Assembly: GCF_900105685.1 (NCBI RefSeq)
Contig: NZ_LT629781.1
Span: 496,001 to 560,000 of the forward strand
Length of the DNA stretch: 64,000 nt
From: Verrucomicrobium sp. GAS474
GTDB lineage: Bacteria; Verrucomicrobiota; Verrucomicrobiia; Methylacidiphilales; GAS474
Direction of reading: 5' to 3'
The notes beneath the pieces were generated by a model. It searched no databases. It was given only the letters and a program-made list of their open reading frames with translations, and had not been told where the DNA came from. Below are positions 30,197 to 63,600 of this stretch, piece by piece. The translations under genes and the position numbers were made by a program. The first letter of the stretch is position 1; each line of letters starts with the position of its first letter.

Positions 30197-31711
30197 ATGA
30201 GCTCTTCCCTTTCCGACACGAAGAACAATCTCCTCAGCGGTCTGACCGTCGCCCTGGCGCTGGTGCCGGAGGCGATTGCTTTTGCCTTCGTCGCCCATCT
30301 TCATCCGCTCGTCGGCCTCTATGCGGCCTTCATCGTCTGCCTGATCACGGCGGTCTGGGGCGGGCGGCCGGGGATGATTTCGGCGGCGGCGGGCTCGCTG
30401 GCGGTCGTCATGGTCGACCTCGTCGTCCGGCACGGGGCCGAATATCTCTTCGCGACGGTGATCGTGATGGGGGTGCTCCAAATCCTCTTCGCCCTCTTCC
30501 GGCTCGGGAAGTTCATCCGCATGGTTCCCCATCCGGTGATGCTCGGCTTCGTGAACGGCCTTGCCATCGTGATCTTCCTCGCCCAGTTCGGCCACTTCAA
30601 GGTGCGCGACGCGGCGGGCGCGGCGGTCTGGATGACGCCCCACCAGATGGCCGTCATGGCGGGCCTGATCGCCGTGACCGTGGCGCTGGTCTACCTCATC
30701 CCGCGCGTGACGAAGGCGGTCCCCTCGGCGCTCGCGGCCATCGTCCTCGTCTCCCTCCTCGTCGCCGTGGCGGGCATCCCGGCGAAGACGGTCGGCGAGA
30801 TGGCCTCGATCCGGGGCGGCTTCCCGCCGTTCCATCTCCCCGCCGTGCCGTGGAATCTGGCGACCCTTTGGATCGTCCTCCCCTACGCGGTGATCCTCTC
30901 CCTCGTCGGGCTGATCGAATCGCTGCTGACATTGAACCTGATCGACGAGATCACCGGGACGCGGGGCCGCCCGAACCGGGAATCGCTCGCCCTCGGCGCG
31001 GCGAACGTCGTCGCCGGATTCTTCGGCAGCATGGGGGGCTGCGCCCTGATCGGCCAGAGCATGATCAACGTGACCTCGGGGGCGACGCGCCGCCTCTCCG
31101 GCATCACGGCGGGGCTCCTCCTCCTCGGCTTCGTCCTCTTCGCCTCGTCGTGGATCGAGAGGATCCCGGTCGCCGCGCTGGTGGGGGTGATGTTCGTCGT
31201 CTCGGCGAAGACCTTCGCCTGGGCCTCGCTCCGCATCTGGAGGAAGGTACCGCACCACGATTACCTCGTGATGGTGCTGGTGACGGTGGTGACGATCTTC
31301 ACCGACCTCGCCGTCGCGGTGATCCTCGGCGTGATCCTCTCGGCGCTCGTCTTCGCCTGGGAACACGCGAAGGAGATCCGCGCGACGAGCCGCGTCGAGG
31401 CCGACGGCACGAAGGTCTACGAGCTGACCGGCACCCTCTTCTTCGCCTCGGCCTCCCGCTTCCAGGAGCTCTTCTCGCCGAAGGAGGACCCGCAGGAGAT
31501 CGTGATCGAGTTCCGCCGCGCCCGCGTCGCCGACCATTCGGCCATCGAGGCGCTCGACAGCCTGACGGCGAAGTACGAGGCGCTGGGGAAGCGCCTCCAC
31601 CTGCGCCACCTCAGCCCCGATTGCCGCGAGCTGCTGACGCGGAAGGGCGTCATCGAAACCGACCCGGCGGGCGACCCCCATTACCGCGTCGCCGACGACC
31701 AGCTCGCCTGA
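30197..31711 (+). CDS. SulP-family anion transporter with STAS domain
   Basis: The 504-residue membrane protein has the SulP transmembrane part (about residues 10-380, with GLTVALALVPEAIAFAFVA near the start and PHPVMLGFVNGLAIVIF). A cytoplasmic STAS domain follows (about 400-490, with EIVIEFRRARVADHSAIEAL holding the conserved DHS). SulP carriers move sulfate, bicarbonate, nitrate or similar anions by proton or sodium coupling; this one resembles the short bacterial group. It stands alone: the repeat lies upstream and a strong terminator downstream. Substrate is not predictable from sequence. Confidence 0.9.
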   Translation: MSSSLSDTKNNLLSGLTVALALVPEAIAFAFVAHLHPLVGLYAAFIVCLITAVWGGRPGMISAAAGSLAVVMVDLVVRHGAEYLFATVIVMGVLQILFALFRLGKFIRMVPHPVMLGFVNGLAIVIFLAQFGHFKVRDAAGAAVWMTPHQMAVMAGLIAVTVALVYLIPRVTKAVPSALAAIVLVSLLVAVAGIPAKTVGEMASIRGGFPPFHLPAVPWNLATLWIVLPYAVILSLVGLIESLLTLNLIDEITGTRGRPNRESLALGAANVVAGFFGSMGGCALIGQSMINVTSGATRRLSGITAGLLLLGFVLFASSWIERIPVAALVGVMFVVSAKTFAWASLRIWRKVPHHDYLVMVLVTVVTIFTDLAVAVILGVILSALVFAWEHAKEIRATSRVEADGTKVYELTGTLFFASASRFQELFSPKEDPQEIVIEFRRARVADHSAIEALDSLTAKYEALGKRLHLRHLSPDCRELLTRKGVIETDPAGDPHYRVADDQLA

Positions 31712-31720
31712 AACGAAAAA

Positions 31721-31752
31721 TCCCGCCCTTGGAAAAGGGCGGGATTTTTTTC
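31721..31752 (+). terminator. Rho-independent terminator after the SulP gene
   Basis: A 10-bp perfect stem (TCCCGCCCTT / AAGGGCGGGA) with a GGAA loop is followed by eight T residues. A-rich sequence precedes it, so it can also stop transcription from the right. Confidence 0.9.
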
Positions 31753-31776
31753 ACCGGGAGGGCGTCGGCCCCGGGT

Positions 31777-32010
31777 CTAGCGATAGACCCAGTGGCCGGG
31801 GACCCACTCGCTATGGTGGTGGTGGCGGACCCAGTAGCCCGGGACCCACTCGCGTTGGGCGTAGTAGGGACTCGGGCCATAGTAACCTGGGCTTCCCACC
31901 CCGATGCCGATGCCGACATGGACCCCCGCTTCGGCCTGCGGCGCGAAGCCGACCAGGCAGAGAGCCAGGGCCACGATCGGAAGGATCAGGAGGCGTGAGG
32001 TTGTCTTCAT
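31777..32010 (-). CDS. Small YXWGXW-repeat secreted protein
   Basis: The 77-residue protein has a signal peptide ending near APQAEA. GVHVGIGIGVG and two WVPGYW/WVPGHW units follow. It is a shortened paralogue of the product at 25982, sharing the AGVHVG-IGVG-YYGP-PYYAQR block. It is last in a run of four minus-strand envelope genes (33128 to 31777), although each is preceded by its own spacer of about 50 bp. The leader is C/A-rich and has no Shine-Dalgarno sequence. Confidence 0.7.
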   Translation of the reverse strand: MKTTSRLLILPIVALALCLVGFAPQAEAGVHVGIGIGVGSPGYYGPSPYYAQREWVPGYWVRHHHHSEWVPGHWVYR

Positions 32011-32061
32011 CTTGGTTCTTGGGTTGGGGTTGGGTTCAGGCGTCCGTTGCCGCGAGCCGGA

Positions 32062-32562
32062 CTAGGGAGTGACCGTGGTTTCCCGCGTCGTCGTCGTGGT
32101 GGTGCTGGCGACGGGTTCCGGCTTGTCCTGGCGGACGACGGTCACCTTGCGGTCGCTGTCGTAGGCCGAGGAAGGGCGGGTCGAGGCGATCAGGGTGCCG
32201 CCGGGGCTCTTGATCTTGTATTCGTCGCGGACCGGCGTGGAGCGGACGTCGGAACCGGAGAGGTTCGTGAGGTGGCCGACGACGTCGCCGTCGCTGTCAT
32301 AGACCTTGCCGCTGGCGCGGACCGTGAGGGCGTCGCCGTCCTTCAGGCCGCCGCTCTCCGCCTTGCGGATGTAGAAGGTCATCGGGGCCTTCACGATAAC
32401 CGTGGTGGTCTGGACGGTCGTCACCGGCGGGGGGACGGGCGGGGCGGGAGGCTGCTGGGTGGTCGTCGTGGTGGTGGTCGACGACGTTTCCTGCGCGAGG
32501 GCGAAGCTGGCGCTGGCGGCGACGAGGATCGCGCCGAGGAGGTAGGTGGTGGTGATTTTCAT
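32062..32562 (-). CDS. Secreted protein, Thr/Pro-rich, unknown function
   Basis: The 166-residue product has a signal peptide (MKITTTYLLGAILVAASASFALA). A Thr run and Pro-rich linker follow, then a compact domain of about 80 residues (from FYIRKAESGGLKDGDALTV), and a second Thr-rich tail. The domain is not recognised. The two Thr-rich flanks are low-complexity and may be flexible or cross-linking. It lies between the YXWGXW gene and the BamE-like lipoprotein on the same strand. Its leader is C/A-rich without a Shine-Dalgarno sequence. Confidence 0.6.
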   Translation of the reverse strand: MKITTTYLLGAILVAASASFALAQETSSTTTTTTTQQPPAPPVPPPVTTVQTTTVIVKAPMTFYIRKAESGGLKDGDALTVRASGKVYDSDGDVVGHLTNLSGSDVRSTPVRDEYKIKSPGGTLIASTRPSSAYDSDRKVTVVRQDKPEPVASTTTTTTRETTVTP

Positions 32563-32613
32563 GGCTTTGGTGGGTTGGGGTTTGGGGGTTGGATTGTTTC
32601 TGATGAATTTCTT

Positions 32614-32931
32614 TTAGGAACCGAACGAGCCGGTCTTTTCCTTCATCTGGTCGTTCTTGAAGACGATCTTCACTTCGGAGGAATTATTCCGGTAGATGTA
32701 AGTCGTCTGCGTGCCGCCGACGATCGGGATCGCCTCGGTCTTCGACTCCGAGGGTTCGCCCAGGATGCTCTTGACCATCGCGGGAGACATGTCGGTCTGG
32801 ACGCGGTCGAGGTTCGCCTGGGTGAGGCTGGTGCCGAAGATCGAGGTGGCCGCCTTGCCGGGCGGCTGGTCGCAGGCGGCCAGCGGGAGGACGGCGAGGA
32901 GGCAGAGGGAGAGTTTCAGGAGATTTTTCAT
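32614..32931 (-). CDS. BamE/SmpA-like lipoprotein
   Basis: The 105-residue product has a lipobox LAAC at residues 18-21 with Asp at +2. A BamE/OmlA-like domain follows: LDRVQTDMSPAMVKSILGEP is the helix-turn preceding the conserved G-x-P, and TTYIYRNNSSEVKIVFKND is the paired strands. BamE-like folds occur in outer-membrane assembly and in other small lipoproteins, so the role is not certain. The +2 Asp would favour inner-membrane retention in Enterobacteria, but that rule may not apply here. It lies in the envelope gene group behind a sigma-54-like promoter. Confidence 0.65.
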   Translation of the reverse strand: MKNLLKLSLCLLAVLPLAACDQPPGKAATSIFGTSLTQANLDRVQTDMSPAMVKSILGEPSESKTEAIPIVGGTQTTYIYRNNSSEVKIVFKNDQMKEKTGSFGS

Positions 32932-32975
32932 GATGTGGGAAACGGGATGGGGGGTTTTGGGGACGAAGGCGGGGA

Positions 32976-33128
32976 CTAGAGGATTCCCAATACGGCGAGG
33001 ATGATCAGGATGAGGAGGAGGAGGCCGAGGCCGCCGCTCGGGTAGTAGCCCCAGCTGGAGCTGTAGGGGAAGATCGGGAGGGCCCCGAGGAGGAAGAGGA
33101 TCAGGAGGATCAGGAGGATGGTGCGCAT
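32976..33128 (-). CDS. DUF3309 small membrane protein
   Basis: The 50-residue protein is two hydrophobic helices separated by the DUF3309 hallmark FPYSSSWGYYPSGGLGLLLL. Members are tiny membrane proteins of unknown function, often linked to stress-induced genes. The ATG at 33128 was chosen because it starts the conserved part; the frame is open to 33230. It is the first gene of the minus-strand envelope group. A sigma-54-type -24/-12 pair lies 83-99 bp upstream. Confidence 0.8.
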   Translation of the reverse strand: MRTILLILLILFLLGALPIFPYSSSWGYYPSGGLGLLLLILIILAVLGIL

Positions 33129-33210
33129 AGGTTTCTTTCGTTGGCGTTGAATTAAGGGGACTTCGGGGGCGGCCTTTTCTCGTTGGGTGAATCGACCGTC
33201 ACCATTAGGA

Positions 33211-33227
33211 GTGCTTCGGCCATGCCA
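33211..33227 (-). promoter_or_regulatory. Sigma-54-type promoter toward the DUF3309 group
   Basis: On the minus strand TGGCATGGCCGAAGCA has the GG and GC elements with exactly 10 bp between them, as sigma-54 requires. The -12 part (AAGCA) deviates from TTGCA. Initiation would be about 70 nt before the DUF3309 start codon. Confidence 0.5.
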
Positions 33228-33276
33228 CAATGGGACGGTTTTTTCCTTAAGCCCTCGGTGCCAGCATCTTTAAAGG

Positions 33277-33390
33277 GCAAAATGCACGTGGCACGCCAGG
33301 GGCCGCTTTTGTCGTACCCGGCGGAATGGCCGCATTTTGCATGAGGCGAATCGACATTTTGCAAACAACCGCCCGCCTCGTTTTGCATGA
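33277..33390. promoter_or_regulatory. Array of four TTTTGCA boxes (possible enhancer sites)
   Basis: GCAAAATGCA at 33277 is inverted. GCATTTTGCATGA starts at 33332, ACATTTTGCAAAC at 33354 and CGTTTTGCATGA at 33379. The last three are 22 and 24 bp apart, about two helical turns. The array sits between two divergent sigma-54-type promoters, where enhancer-binding proteins usually bind. The 397-bp gap around it holds no gene. Confidence 0.55.
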
Positions 33391-33430
33391 TCGGGAACCT
33401 CCTCTGAAGGGAACGGGGGAAACGGGGCGA

Positions 33431-33446
33431 TGGCACGGTGCCTGCA
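33431..33446 (+). promoter_or_regulatory. Sigma-54-type promoter toward the outer-membrane protein gene
   Basis: TGGCACGGTGCCTGCA has a perfect -24 TGGCACG, the obligatory 10-bp GG-GC spacing, and CTGCA at -12. Initiation is expected near 33457, about 70 nt before the start codon at 33526. Confidence 0.65.
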
Positions 33447-33525
33447 CCTTTCTTCCAAAAGGAACCCGGGCGGCGGTGGAGGGAAGAATTCCCCCCCGAC
33501 GCCTACCCACCCATAGGAGAAAACC

Positions 33526-34083
33526 ATGAATGCGAAATTGAAACTGCTGAGCCTTGTCCTGACCCTGAGCGCCATCACGGCCTTTGCCGGAGACGGCAAC
33601 AACGATCCGAAGGACTTCCACCACTCGTTGCTCTCCCAGAACGTCCAACCCGATTATTCCTACTTCCGCGCCAACGAATGGCAGGTCGACGCCTTCGGCG
33701 CCTATGCGGTCGCCGGGAGCGGGGTGATCAACTCGGGCGGCGGCGGCGGCGCCGGGGTGAATTACTTCTTCAGCCGCTACATCGGCCTCGGCCTCGAAGG
33801 AAGCGGCTTCGACGGCGGCTCGACGGTCGACACCGTGAGCTCGGCGACGCTGAACCTGATCGCCCGCTACCCCATCGAGTCGCTCCACATCGCTCCTTAC
33901 GCCTTCATCGGCGCGGGCGGGAACTTCATGACGAACGACGAGCAGGCGACGGGCGACCTGGGCGTGGGCGTCGAATGGCGCTTCACCCGGAACTGGGGCA
34001 TCTTCACCGACGCCCGCTACGTGGTCGCCGACGACACGAACAACTACGGCCTCGCCCGCCTCGGTGTCCGGTTCGCCTACTAA
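33526..34083 (+). CDS. Outer-membrane beta-barrel protein
   Basis: The 185-residue protein has a signal peptide ending at AITAFA. Alternating amphipathic strands follow (for example WQVDAFGAYAVAGSG, VNYFFSRYIGLGLEGSGF, DLGVGVEWRF), and the C-terminal residue pattern ends in RLGVRFAY, the aromatic-ending signature of outer-membrane barrels. It probably forms an 8-strand OmpA/OmpX-like barrel. The start has a good AGGAG seven bases upstream. A sigma-54-type promoter and TTTTGCA boxes lie upstream, and a strong terminator follows. Confidence 0.75.
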   Translation: MNAKLKLLSLVLTLSAITAFAGDGNNDPKDFHHSLLSQNVQPDYSYFRANEWQVDAFGAYAVAGSGVINSGGGGGAGVNYFFSRYIGLGLEGSGFDGGSTVDTVSSATLNLIARYPIESLHIAPYAFIGAGGNFMTNDEQATGDLGVGVEWRFTRNWGIFTDARYVVADDTNNYGLARLGVRFAY

Positions 34084-34125
34084 ATCGACTTAACGCTTTG
34101 TTCCTCATCGCGCCGAGGTGCGATG

Positions 34126-34168
34126 CCCCCGGGTTCCTCCATCGTGAGGGACCCGGGGGATTTTTTTT
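34126..34168 (+). terminator. Rho-independent terminator after the barrel gene
   Basis: The arms CCCCCGGGT and ACCCGGGGG enclose a smaller CCTC/GAGG stem, followed by A and a run of T residues. Confidence 0.9.
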
Positions 34169-34300
34169 GCCCTGAAGCGGAGAGAGGGAGGACTTTCTCC
34201 CCTTGCCTGAAGACCTCAAGGAAGAGCGATAGGAAGGAGGCCAAGTTCCCCTGCCGATCGACGGACGAGCCGCCCGCAGCAAAGGAGGAGGGAACTTAGC

Positions 34301-60643: not shown

Positions 60644-63600
60644 ATGAAAGCCCAGCCCTTCTTTCCCGACCTGCTCTTCCCCAAGCCGTCCGCTTTGCCT
60701 CCGCTGCCCGGAAACTGGCATCGGTGCGGCCGGATCGAGGTTCTCGAACGAAGCGAAGGAGTCGAGATGTCGGAAGGATTCTGCGTCGCGGACCATGACC
60801 ACGGGGACGGCGAAATCGTCTTCCGGGTCTGCGCGCCGAAGGAGGTTGCGGAAGTCCAGATCTGGGCGGGTTTTCGCGCGAAGGACCGCCACCACCGCTA
60901 CGTCGTTGCGCTGCGCGGGGGGAATAACGATCAGCTCTACCTCGCCCGCTACGGATCGAACGGTGGATCCCGGTTCCTCGGGATCGCGCCTCTCGGGTTC
61001 CATCCCGAGCCCGGGATCTGGTATCGCCTGCGCGTGGTTCTGGAGAGGAACCGCATCCGCGTTTTCCTCGGTGATGAAGCGGAGGCCCGCATCGACGTGA
61101 TCGACGATGACGGGGGATGGACCGAGGGGGCGGTGGTCCTGGGAGGCGGCTATCTTCCCGCCGTGTATGCGCCGCCGGAGATTGGAAAGGTCCTTGTCGC
61201 GGGGGCCGGGGGTCGGATCGCTGCGAAGGAGTCGGAACCTTTGGGGCGGGAACGGCAGCGCCGCCGACAGCGTGCCGCGTATCGCGGTGCGCGGATCGCT
61301 TCCGTGGGAGAAGGCCGGACCGAGATCTCCCTCGACGGGGAGTGGCTTTTCGCGCCTGGACAGGAACTCGACGACGAGGCGCAGCCCGTCGGGATCGATG
61401 CGGACGATTCGGGTTGGCACCTGCTTCCCGTCCCCAATCTCTGGACTCCCTGCCTCGCATGGCTCCACGGCGAACACGCGTTTCCCCACCTCTCCGGTCT
61501 TTCTCAAACCAAGGGCGTCAGCGAAAGAGCCTATCTGGCCGAGATGGCGCGGCTCGACGGCTATACTTTCCCGTGGCGGGAGACGCAGGCCGGGTGGTAT
61601 CGGCACCATGTCGATCTTCCTGCGGGGCTCGCCGTCCGCAAGGTGGAGCTTTGTTTTGATGCGATCGCGAAGGTTTCCGAGATCTGGGTGAACGGCATCC
61701 GGGTCGGCGGCCATGTCGGCATGTTCGGCGAGGTGCTCTGCGACATTTCCCGAGCGATCCGTCCGGGAAAGAACGTCATCGCGGTTCAGGTCCTGCGGAG
61801 CCTGAAGACAGGCGAGACGACGAGCGGCCGCGTGGTCGGCTTGGCCGAGTCGGTCGAAGTCACCGAGAAGATGCTCCTCTCCCTGCCCGCCGACATGTAC
61901 CAGTTCGATCCCGGCGGCATCTGGCAGTCGGTGAGGCTCCTCGTCACCGATCCGGTTTCGATCGACGACATCTTCGTCCAGCCCCGCTTGGACGGAGCCT
62001 TATTCGACGTCACGGTGGCCAACGGAGGCGACTCCGCCGAGACGGTGCAGGTAGCCTACGCCATCCATCGTCGCAAAGACGGCGCGCTTCTCTTCGCCGA
62101 CGAAAACGCGGGCCGGGCGGACGTTCCCTCCACGGGTGAGGCGCAGATCCGGATCACGACGCCGATCCTCGCGCCTCGCCTTTGGTTCCCGCACGATCCC
62201 GAGCTGTACGAGGTGACCGTCGAACTGATGCGTGCCGGAAAAAGCATCGACCGCTATCGCGTCGAATTCGGATTCCGCACGTTCACCACCGAGAAGAACC
62301 GCTTCCTGCTCAACGGCAAGCCCTACTGGCTTCGCGGGGCCAACCATTTCCCCCACGCGCTCGGTCCCAACGACGAGAAGCTGGCCGACACCTTCACGCG
62401 CCTCGCCGTCGAGGGCAACGTGCGGGCCACCCGCTTCCACGTGGCACCCCTCACGAAGGCGTGGGCCTGCGCCGCCGACCGCCACGGCCTCGCCGTCTCT
62501 TTCGAGGGAATCTGGCCGTGGCTGATGCTCAACGGAGAACCTCCGGCCGACGCCCTGCTGCAAGCCTGGGAAGACGATTTCGCCTCCCTCGTGAAGCGCT
62601 TCCGGAACCATCCCTCCGTCGTCCTCTGGACGGTGAACAACGAGATGAAGTTCTACATCTTCGATAAGGAAAACAAAGAACGGCTCCAGCGCAAGTGGGC
62701 CATCGTCTCCCGGATGATCAAGCGGATGCGCGAACTCGATCCCACCCGCCCCGTCGTCGCCGATTCGGGTTATGTCCGGGGCGCCCATATCGAGGACTAC
62801 CGGAACATCGTCGAGCCGAACGGCTTCGACGACGGGGACGTCGACGACATCCACGAATATTACAGTTGGTATCATCCTTCCTTCACCACCGCGTGGAAGG
62901 GGGAGTTCGCGGCGCGCTCGTCGTCGCCGGACCGTCCCTTCATCTGCCAGGAACTTTCCTCGGGCTACCCGCGCAACGACGACGGCCTCCCCGTCCGCTT
63001 CTACCTGTTCAATCACCAGACGCCGCAGGCCCTGGTCGGCGACTATGCGTTCGAGCACAACGATCCCGCCCATTTCCTCGCGCGGCACGCCCTCACCACC
63101 CGGCAGACGGGCGAGGCCATCCGCCGCACGAACCGGGACAACGCCGCGGGAGCCCTCCACTTCGCCTATCTCACGTGGTTCCGCAACGTCCACGACGCCG
63201 CGACGGTGACGCCGTGGGCCCCCTATCACGCTCTCCGTGCCGCGCTCCAGCCGATCCTCCTCAGCCTCGAGCATCTCGGGAGCCGCTGTTACGCAGGGGC
63301 CCGTTTGCGTCGGCGTGTCTGCGTCGTGAATGACTCCGAAACCATGGAAGGGCTCCCCGCCTCCCGGCTGGAATGGAGCTTCGTCGACCGAAGCGGGAAG
63401 ATTCTTTCGCGGGACGGCATCCTCGTGCCTGCCGTTCCTTATTATTCCAACCATTGGGTCGACGTCGAGATCGTCGCGCCCGCGGTCCTCGGGACTCCCC
63501 GGGTCGATGGCCGTATCCTCCTTCGGCTTTCGGTCGAAGGTCGGACGCTTGCCGAGAACGCCTACGATTTCACTGTCGCCTCGCGCGAGTGGACTCATCC

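Follow-up and report, generated by a model that had tools for sequence, protein, structure and literature searches.

General stress responses in bacteria are usually ascribed to dedicated sigma factors such as RpoS, SigB, and EcfG. In Vibrio, LuxO and SypG activate qrr1 via sigma-54, and LuxO, which belongs to the same class as the activator considered in this work, is reported to bind TTGCAWWWTGCAA as a UAS (PMC10162802). AlgB of the KinB-AlgB system of Pseudomonas is a response regulator of the NtrC subfamily that contains GAFTGA (PMC6932827). The accessible part of Francke et al. 2011 presents sigma-54 as a controller of the bacterial exterior (PMC3162934), and the accessible part of a survey of sigma-54 regulons from 2025 mentions Verrucomicrobiota only with regard to motility in Opitutia (PMC12316311). 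Here, an envelope and general-stress regulon under sigma-54 is predicted from sequence. The original prediction for this DNA had called such a regulon undescribed, and in agreement with this, no published account of the regulon or its activator was found in a literature search.

The locus lies in a 64-kb stretch of DNA, referred to as the window, which corresponds to C1:496001-560000 of the 3.76-Mb single-contig genome of Verrucomicrobium sp. GAS474. Positions preceded by C1 refer to the contig, all others to the window.

Putative sigma-54 promoters between two transcription units

The intergenic region 33129-33525 (397 bp) separates a DUF3309 gene (33128-32976, minus strand) from a gene for an outer-membrane beta-barrel protein (33526-34083, plus strand). 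The DUF3309 small membrane protein (32976-33128; Pfam PF11752, 8e-20) is encoded by the first gene of a minus-strand group, and a 44-nt gap separates it from the second gene, that of a BamE-domain lipoprotein (32614-32931; PF04355, 9.6e-6, above the cut-off). The third gene (32062-32562) encodes a secreted protein with a signal-peptide-like start, for which no Pfam match above the cut-off and no NCBIfam match was obtained, and the fourth a WXXGXW-repeat secreted protein (31777-32010; PF12779, 4.7e-5). The beta-barrel protein comprises 185 aa and matches PF13505 (OMP_b-brl) at 6e-6, slightly below the cut-off; 3' of its gene there is an intrinsic-terminator-like hairpin (34126-34159, plus strand), formed by a 14-pair stem and followed by a T run. 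The gene descriptions given previously are hence accurate (DUF3309, 8e-20; BamE domain, 1e-5; the WXXGXW protein; OMP_b-brl, 6e-6). Among 59 relatives, no homolog or ortholog of the beta-barrel gene was found, and there is hence none for footprinting the window locus.

The original prediction placed divergent sigma-54 promoters in this region, an idea that would fail in a genome that lacks RpoN. An rpoN gene is present (PF04552, 4.6e-58) and passes the curated cut-off of TIGR02395, with 419 bits compared to 277. The predicted -24/-12 promoter of the beta-barrel gene, TGGCACGGTGCCTGCA at 33431-33446 on the plus strand, has 1 mismatch to TGGCACGNNNNTTGCW and contains the GG-N10-GC core with TGGCAC/TTGC-like elements. 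It is located 80 bp ahead of the ATG, with a predicted start near 33457. Only 0.007 sites of this quality are expected in the 397-bp region, and the site is among the 20 with at most 1 mismatch to TGGCACGNNNNTTGCW in the 3.76 Mb. With 29 matches to the reversed pattern, this total does not represent a genome-wide excess, and agreement with the consensus is not proof by itself; the position relative to the boxes described below was therefore tested instead. The distance from the plus site to the box at 33331 is 89 bp, and those of the other box/promoter pairs are 67-121 bp. With dyads 89 and 144 bp upstream, the arrangement corresponds to that of sigma-54 activator sites, which typically lie ~70-200 bp upstream. 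We regard the plus site as a strong candidate for a sigma-54 promoter. Other sites with 1 mismatch or fewer precede glnB-like (0 mismatches), glnK/amtB-like, and flagellar-looking genes (named by inspection of the protein sequences), an indication that sigma-54 serves its classical roles in this organism. The window's only other sigma-54-like site with at most 2 mismatches, TGGCCCGCACGTTGCC at 62414-62429 (minus strand), is probably due to chance.

The possible promoter of the DUF3309 operon, TGGCATGGCCGAAGCA at 33212-33227 on the minus strand, keeps GG-N10-GC, as had been proposed for both sites, but with its 3 mismatches it is a weak match. For strict sites with at most 3 mismatches, ~0.16 are expected per region of this kind, and the same gap contains two more 3-mismatch sites, at 33283-33298 (minus strand), overlapping box 0, and at 33289-33304 (plus strand). 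The minus site is 103 bp from the box at 33331, and the chance of a match in a right-oriented slot of this size is ~0.01. A divergent sigma-54 pair was obtained in none of 3000 Markov-1 simulations of the region. The minus promoter is thus not significant alone, and sites of its quality show no significant enrichment beside boxes genome-wide, but it is plausible on the basis of its geometry and of analogy. The 3 mismatches, and the presence of three such sites in the gap, would also fit a situation in which only the beta-barrel gene is under the control of sigma-54 and the activator, the DUF3309 group being transcribed from another promoter and the minus site being a chance match; that DUF3309 genes elsewhere are mostly without boxes points in the same direction. 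We consider this rather unlikely, since the minus site keeps GG-N10-GC in the correct orientation and at a distance within the 67-121 bp range, since the genome contains four other divergent loci, since the divergent layout upstream of the activator gene is kept in three species, and since no sigma-70-like site was found in 31700-34300.

The dyad boxes and the associated activator family

The original prediction described four TTTTGCA boxes between the promoters. Three of them are present, at 33335, 33357, and 33381 (spacings of 22 and 24), whereas the fourth is an inverted, imperfect copy at 33276-33286, TGCATTTTGCC on the minus strand. A TTTTGCA pair 8-30 bp apart has no second instance anywhere in the genome. 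The exact reverse complement of GCATTTTGC (33332-33340) is present as GCAAAATGC at 33277-33285; GCATTTTGC can be read as the dyad GCA-TTT-TGC, and TGCA-WWW-TGCA was therefore tested. The boxes at 33276 and 33331 have 1 mismatch to this dyad and that at 33353 has 2, and the box at 33377 shows little beyond a half-site. When the region was simulated with a Markov-1 model, the frequency of two or more dyads with at most 1 mismatch was 0.0003.

A matrix was derived from 39 sites of regulator orthologs in other species, with this genome left out, and applied to the full 64 kb. Box 0 (GGCAAAATGCA, 33276-33286, inverted) was the top match in the window with 15.1 bits and box 1 (CGCATTTTGCA, 33331-33341) the second with 11.5 bits, both being strong. 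Box 2 (GACATTTTGCA, 33353-33363) is moderate, with 6.3 bits and rank 6, and box 3 (CTCGTTTTGCA, 33377-33387), which corresponds to the proposed TTTTGCA at 33381, is a half-site only, with 0.8 bits. The matrix sites were gathered with a dyad pattern first noticed in this genome, and the unbiased dyad enumeration presented below is the guard against circularity. The reading of TTTTGCA as a direct repeat was given up in favor of the dyad, with which the inverted copy and the cross-species matrix agree better. The functional unit is better read as a TGCA-N3-TGCA dyad, and only two or three of the four boxes are convincing as such.

This motif is linked to one regulator. The genome contains 22 copies of GCATTTTGC, compared to 7 of the reversed word, and a single sigma-54 activator gene is flanked by, or close to, four of the 22. 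The encoded protein (C1:2542637-2543995) possesses a receiver (PF00072), a sigma-54 AAA+ domain (PF00158), and a Fis-type HTH (PF02954), all above the cut-off, and GAFTGA is found in its translation. Of the six full-length sigma-54 activators in the genome, it is the only one with a dyad within 1.5 kb, and no box was detected within this distance of the other five. At 1e-100, 56 of 289 genomes from the phylum contain a match to the activator, and the matches above ~48% identity form a clear group. By protein sequence, its closest named relatives are verrucomicrobial, and those of Verrucomicrobia bacterium Tous-C9LFEB and Verrucomicrobium sp. HJP_bin11 are 83% identical; no named close relative was found on plasmids, where the best match was 42% and ZraR-like.

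For the enumeration, the flanks of 29 orthologs from other genomes were searched with all 256 four-base arms and spacers of 0-10, amounting to 2816 dyads, with no prior. TGCA-N3-TGCA ranked first (27 seen versus 1.67 expected, p=2e-23), and the next best dyad had p=4e-6. The dyad was present within 400 bp upstream of the activator gene of this genome and, in a separate collection, of 25 of 26 verrucomicrobial orthologs, compared to 1 of 54 more distant activators from the same search; Markov-1 shuffles gave 1.05 on average and 7 at most. The contig of the single ortholog without a dyad holds only 117 bases upstream. The sets of 29 and 26 orthologs share some species (e.g., Roseibacillus persicicus, with matching coordinates) and are not fully independent. 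Orthologs with a complete C-terminus have in common LGI[DN]xATLYRKR, which is absent from the distant activators and from the other activators of the genome. We take the C-terminal HTH of the activator (...TLYRKRK) to resemble that of AlgB, which is a lead only. The number of dyads per genome was rejected as a marker of the activator, being uninformative: ortholog-free genomes carry dyads too, and composition dominates. Two genomes of the same order (G010:C10:121129 and G024) have 10 and 17 perfect dyads, compared to 2 and 7 for the controls. Another observation concerns a HAMP/HisKA kinase (C1:2550879-2552765), whose operon has a dyad upstream and which is 37% identical over 425 aa to the kinase encoded directly behind the activator gene in Roseibacillus; it is a possible candidate for the sensor or partner of the activator.

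It is very likely that one sigma-54 activator uses the boxes as its enhancer sites. Alternatively, a different regulator, for example of the OmpR type, might read TTTTGCA as direct repeats at 22-24 bp, the sigma-54 site being unrelated; the three copies have near-helical spacing, and the gene downstream encodes an outer-membrane protein. This is improbable, as a dyad rather than a direct repeat agrees with both the inverted copy and the cross-species matrix, the dyad adjoins the activator's own gene and those of its orthologs, and boxes pair with sigma-54 sites genome-wide. That AT-rich words in a GC-rich intergenic region merely coincide with sigma-54 matches, which at the level of at most 1 mismatch are not in genome-wide excess, is scarcely credible in view of the region simulations, the unique TTTTGCA pair, the independent matrix ranking, and the linkage to the regulator.

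Predicted regulon and its conservation

Genome-wide, 50 of the 52 dyads with at most 1 mismatch were collected, and sigma-54 sites were searched for in a slot pointing away from the box at a distance of 40-180 bp, with 200 permuted consensuses as the control. Sites with at most 1 mismatch were found beside 4 boxes at 3 loci (the window, C1:1996812, and C1:2465300), compared to a mean of 0.07 and at most 2 for the permuted consensuses. With at most 2 mismatches, the count was 11, compared to 0.9 (maximum of 6), whereas at 3 mismatches the count of 16, compared to 8.5, was not significant, since 9 of the 200 controls reach 16. As for the genome scan suggested originally, for sigma-54 sites paired with TTTTGCA boxes, the TTTTGCA pair is unique to the window, but the dyads do pair with outward sigma-54 sites.

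The genes next to dyads encode DUF892/YciE-like proteins (three loci), ferritin-like Dps, CsbD, an lmo0937-family membrane protein, a DUF2231 protein, two glycogen-type enzymes (CBM48/alpha-amylase), small lipoproteins, and a PagL-like outer-membrane enzyme. For the Dps gene and the DUF892 gene at C1:1578689, both of which have a box, the tested slot contains no sigma-54 match with at most 3 mismatches, and the PagL-like gene has only a distant three-mismatch site. The envelope-stress character proposed for the regulon is retained, but not a scope confined to the envelope, since YciE, CsbD, glycogen-enzyme, and probably Dps genes join it. Two dyads 31 bp apart (C1:62452-62493) precede the gene of the PagL-like lipid A deacylase, and lipid A modification may belong to the regulon. 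Neither a dyad nor a good sigma-54 site was present in the 420 bp that precede a second DUF3309 gene of the genome (C1:1969943-1970092).

Five divergent loci have a box in the middle, namely, the window, C1:1991446, C1:2465300, C1:2553462, and C1:2691382; at C1:1991446 and C1:2553462, the promoters are themselves three-mismatch sites. At C1:2465195-2465404, a divergent pair of 1-mismatch sigma-54 sites encloses one dyad, with the DUF2231 gene on one side; on the other side, no gene was called for ~600 bp, which possibly contains a small unannotated gene or RNA. The box-promoter gaps of the likely pairs in this genome are 67-121 bp, and those upstream of activator orthologs are mostly ~78-90 bp.

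Promoter-plus-box layouts are kept between species at the activator gene, at csbD, and downstream of yciE. In the alignment with the two 83%-identity relatives, TGGCAC and CTAGCAA are invariant in three species downstream of yciE, and at csbD, GG-N10-GC is kept in two species. The activator gene is preceded by a TTGCA[AT]-type box (TGCAA.ATGCAAT) that is kept in the three-species alignment, and on the far side of this box there is a conserved minus-strand GG-N10-GC-like site, so that the divergent layout is kept in three species. The candidate for the activator's own promoter, TGGCACGATATATTCT, is conserved, although its -12 element is without the GC. A TGGCACGA[AT]ATATTCT block in the region upstream of the activator gene (C1:2542259-2542659), conserved in three species, resembles a sigma-54 site with TC in place of GC at -12. 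Ahead of the gene of a DUF1328 small membrane protein in another genome of this genus, there are a double box and TGGCATGGGGGGTGCA. In other genomes, boxes were found upstream of 2 of 16 DUF3309 genes and 4 of 30 DUF892 genes, and the idea that these two families are class-wide conserved targets was set aside as weak. The sequence comparisons indicate that the link between regulator and motif is conserved and that the content of the regulon varies between species.

Proposed mechanism and comparison with known systems

The motif, its link to the activator family, and the promoter matches with their geometry were computed; from these we infer binding, activation, looping, an inducing signal, and the minus promoter. 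Region 33129-33525 is likely to be a shared enhancer at which the activator encoded at C1:2542637-2543995 acts on the barrel promoter and, less certainly, on the DUF3309 side. The activator would occupy the TGCA-N3-TGCA dyads at 33276 and 33331, probably also the one at 33353, and would then loop to sigma-54 RNA polymerase at 33431 (plus strand), leading to expression of the beta-barrel gene. With lower certainty, it would also act on the site at 33212 (minus strand), and thereby on the DUF3309, BamE-like, and secreted-protein genes. Both transcription units would be members of a general- and envelope-stress regulon. The original proposal of one enhancer-binding protein serving both sides is well founded for the plus side, with its strong site, dyads, and activator link, and only plausible for the minus side with its 3 mismatches. 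Overall, the finding is sound and mostly as had been guessed, with the box redefined and the regulator identified.

Tentatively, many Verrucomicrobiota might run their general stress response through sigma-54 and one self-linked response-regulator activator, with no dedicated stress sigma factor. As part of this same tentative proposal, the activator would read TGCA-WWW-TGCA, often at divergent promoters with a shared enhancer, of which the window would hold the richest in the genome, and its targets would be YciE, CsbD, Dps, glycogen enzymes, small membrane proteins, and envelope proteins. An activator, a motif, a target list, and a spacing rule are now predicted for a phylum whose stress regulation has hardly been studied, and the control of verrucomicrobial stress and envelope genes therefore becomes directly testable.

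The activator has the same domain layout as ZraR, AtoC, NtrC, and the PEP-CTERM response regulator, with NCBIfam model matches of E 1e-103 to 1e-120. However, it stays below the NCBIfam equivalog cut-offs for LuxO (354 versus 800 bits), ZraR (347 versus 760 bits), AtoC (403 versus 714 bits), and the PEP-CTERM response regulator (372 versus 502.6 bits), and its identity with LuxO, ZraR, AtoC, NtrC, or the PEP-CTERM regulator was rejected, as all curated equivalog cut-offs were missed widely. The theme of sigma-54 control over envelope functions is shared with Francke et al. 2011, although the activator, motif, and regulon described here are absent from the accessible part of that article (PMC3162934). 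Like AlgB, the activator is of the NtrC type with GAFTGA, and a HAMP-type kinase may be its partner, but the known roles of AlgB are in biofilm, virulence, and alginate, whereas stress and envelope targets are predicted here. The resemblance to LuxO and SypG consists in a receiver-AAA+-Fis HTH activator, a nearly identical dyad core, and a sigma-54 promoter with more than one upstream site; the predicted targets, by contrast, are genes for stress and envelope proteins rather than a small RNA, and they belong to a different phylum.
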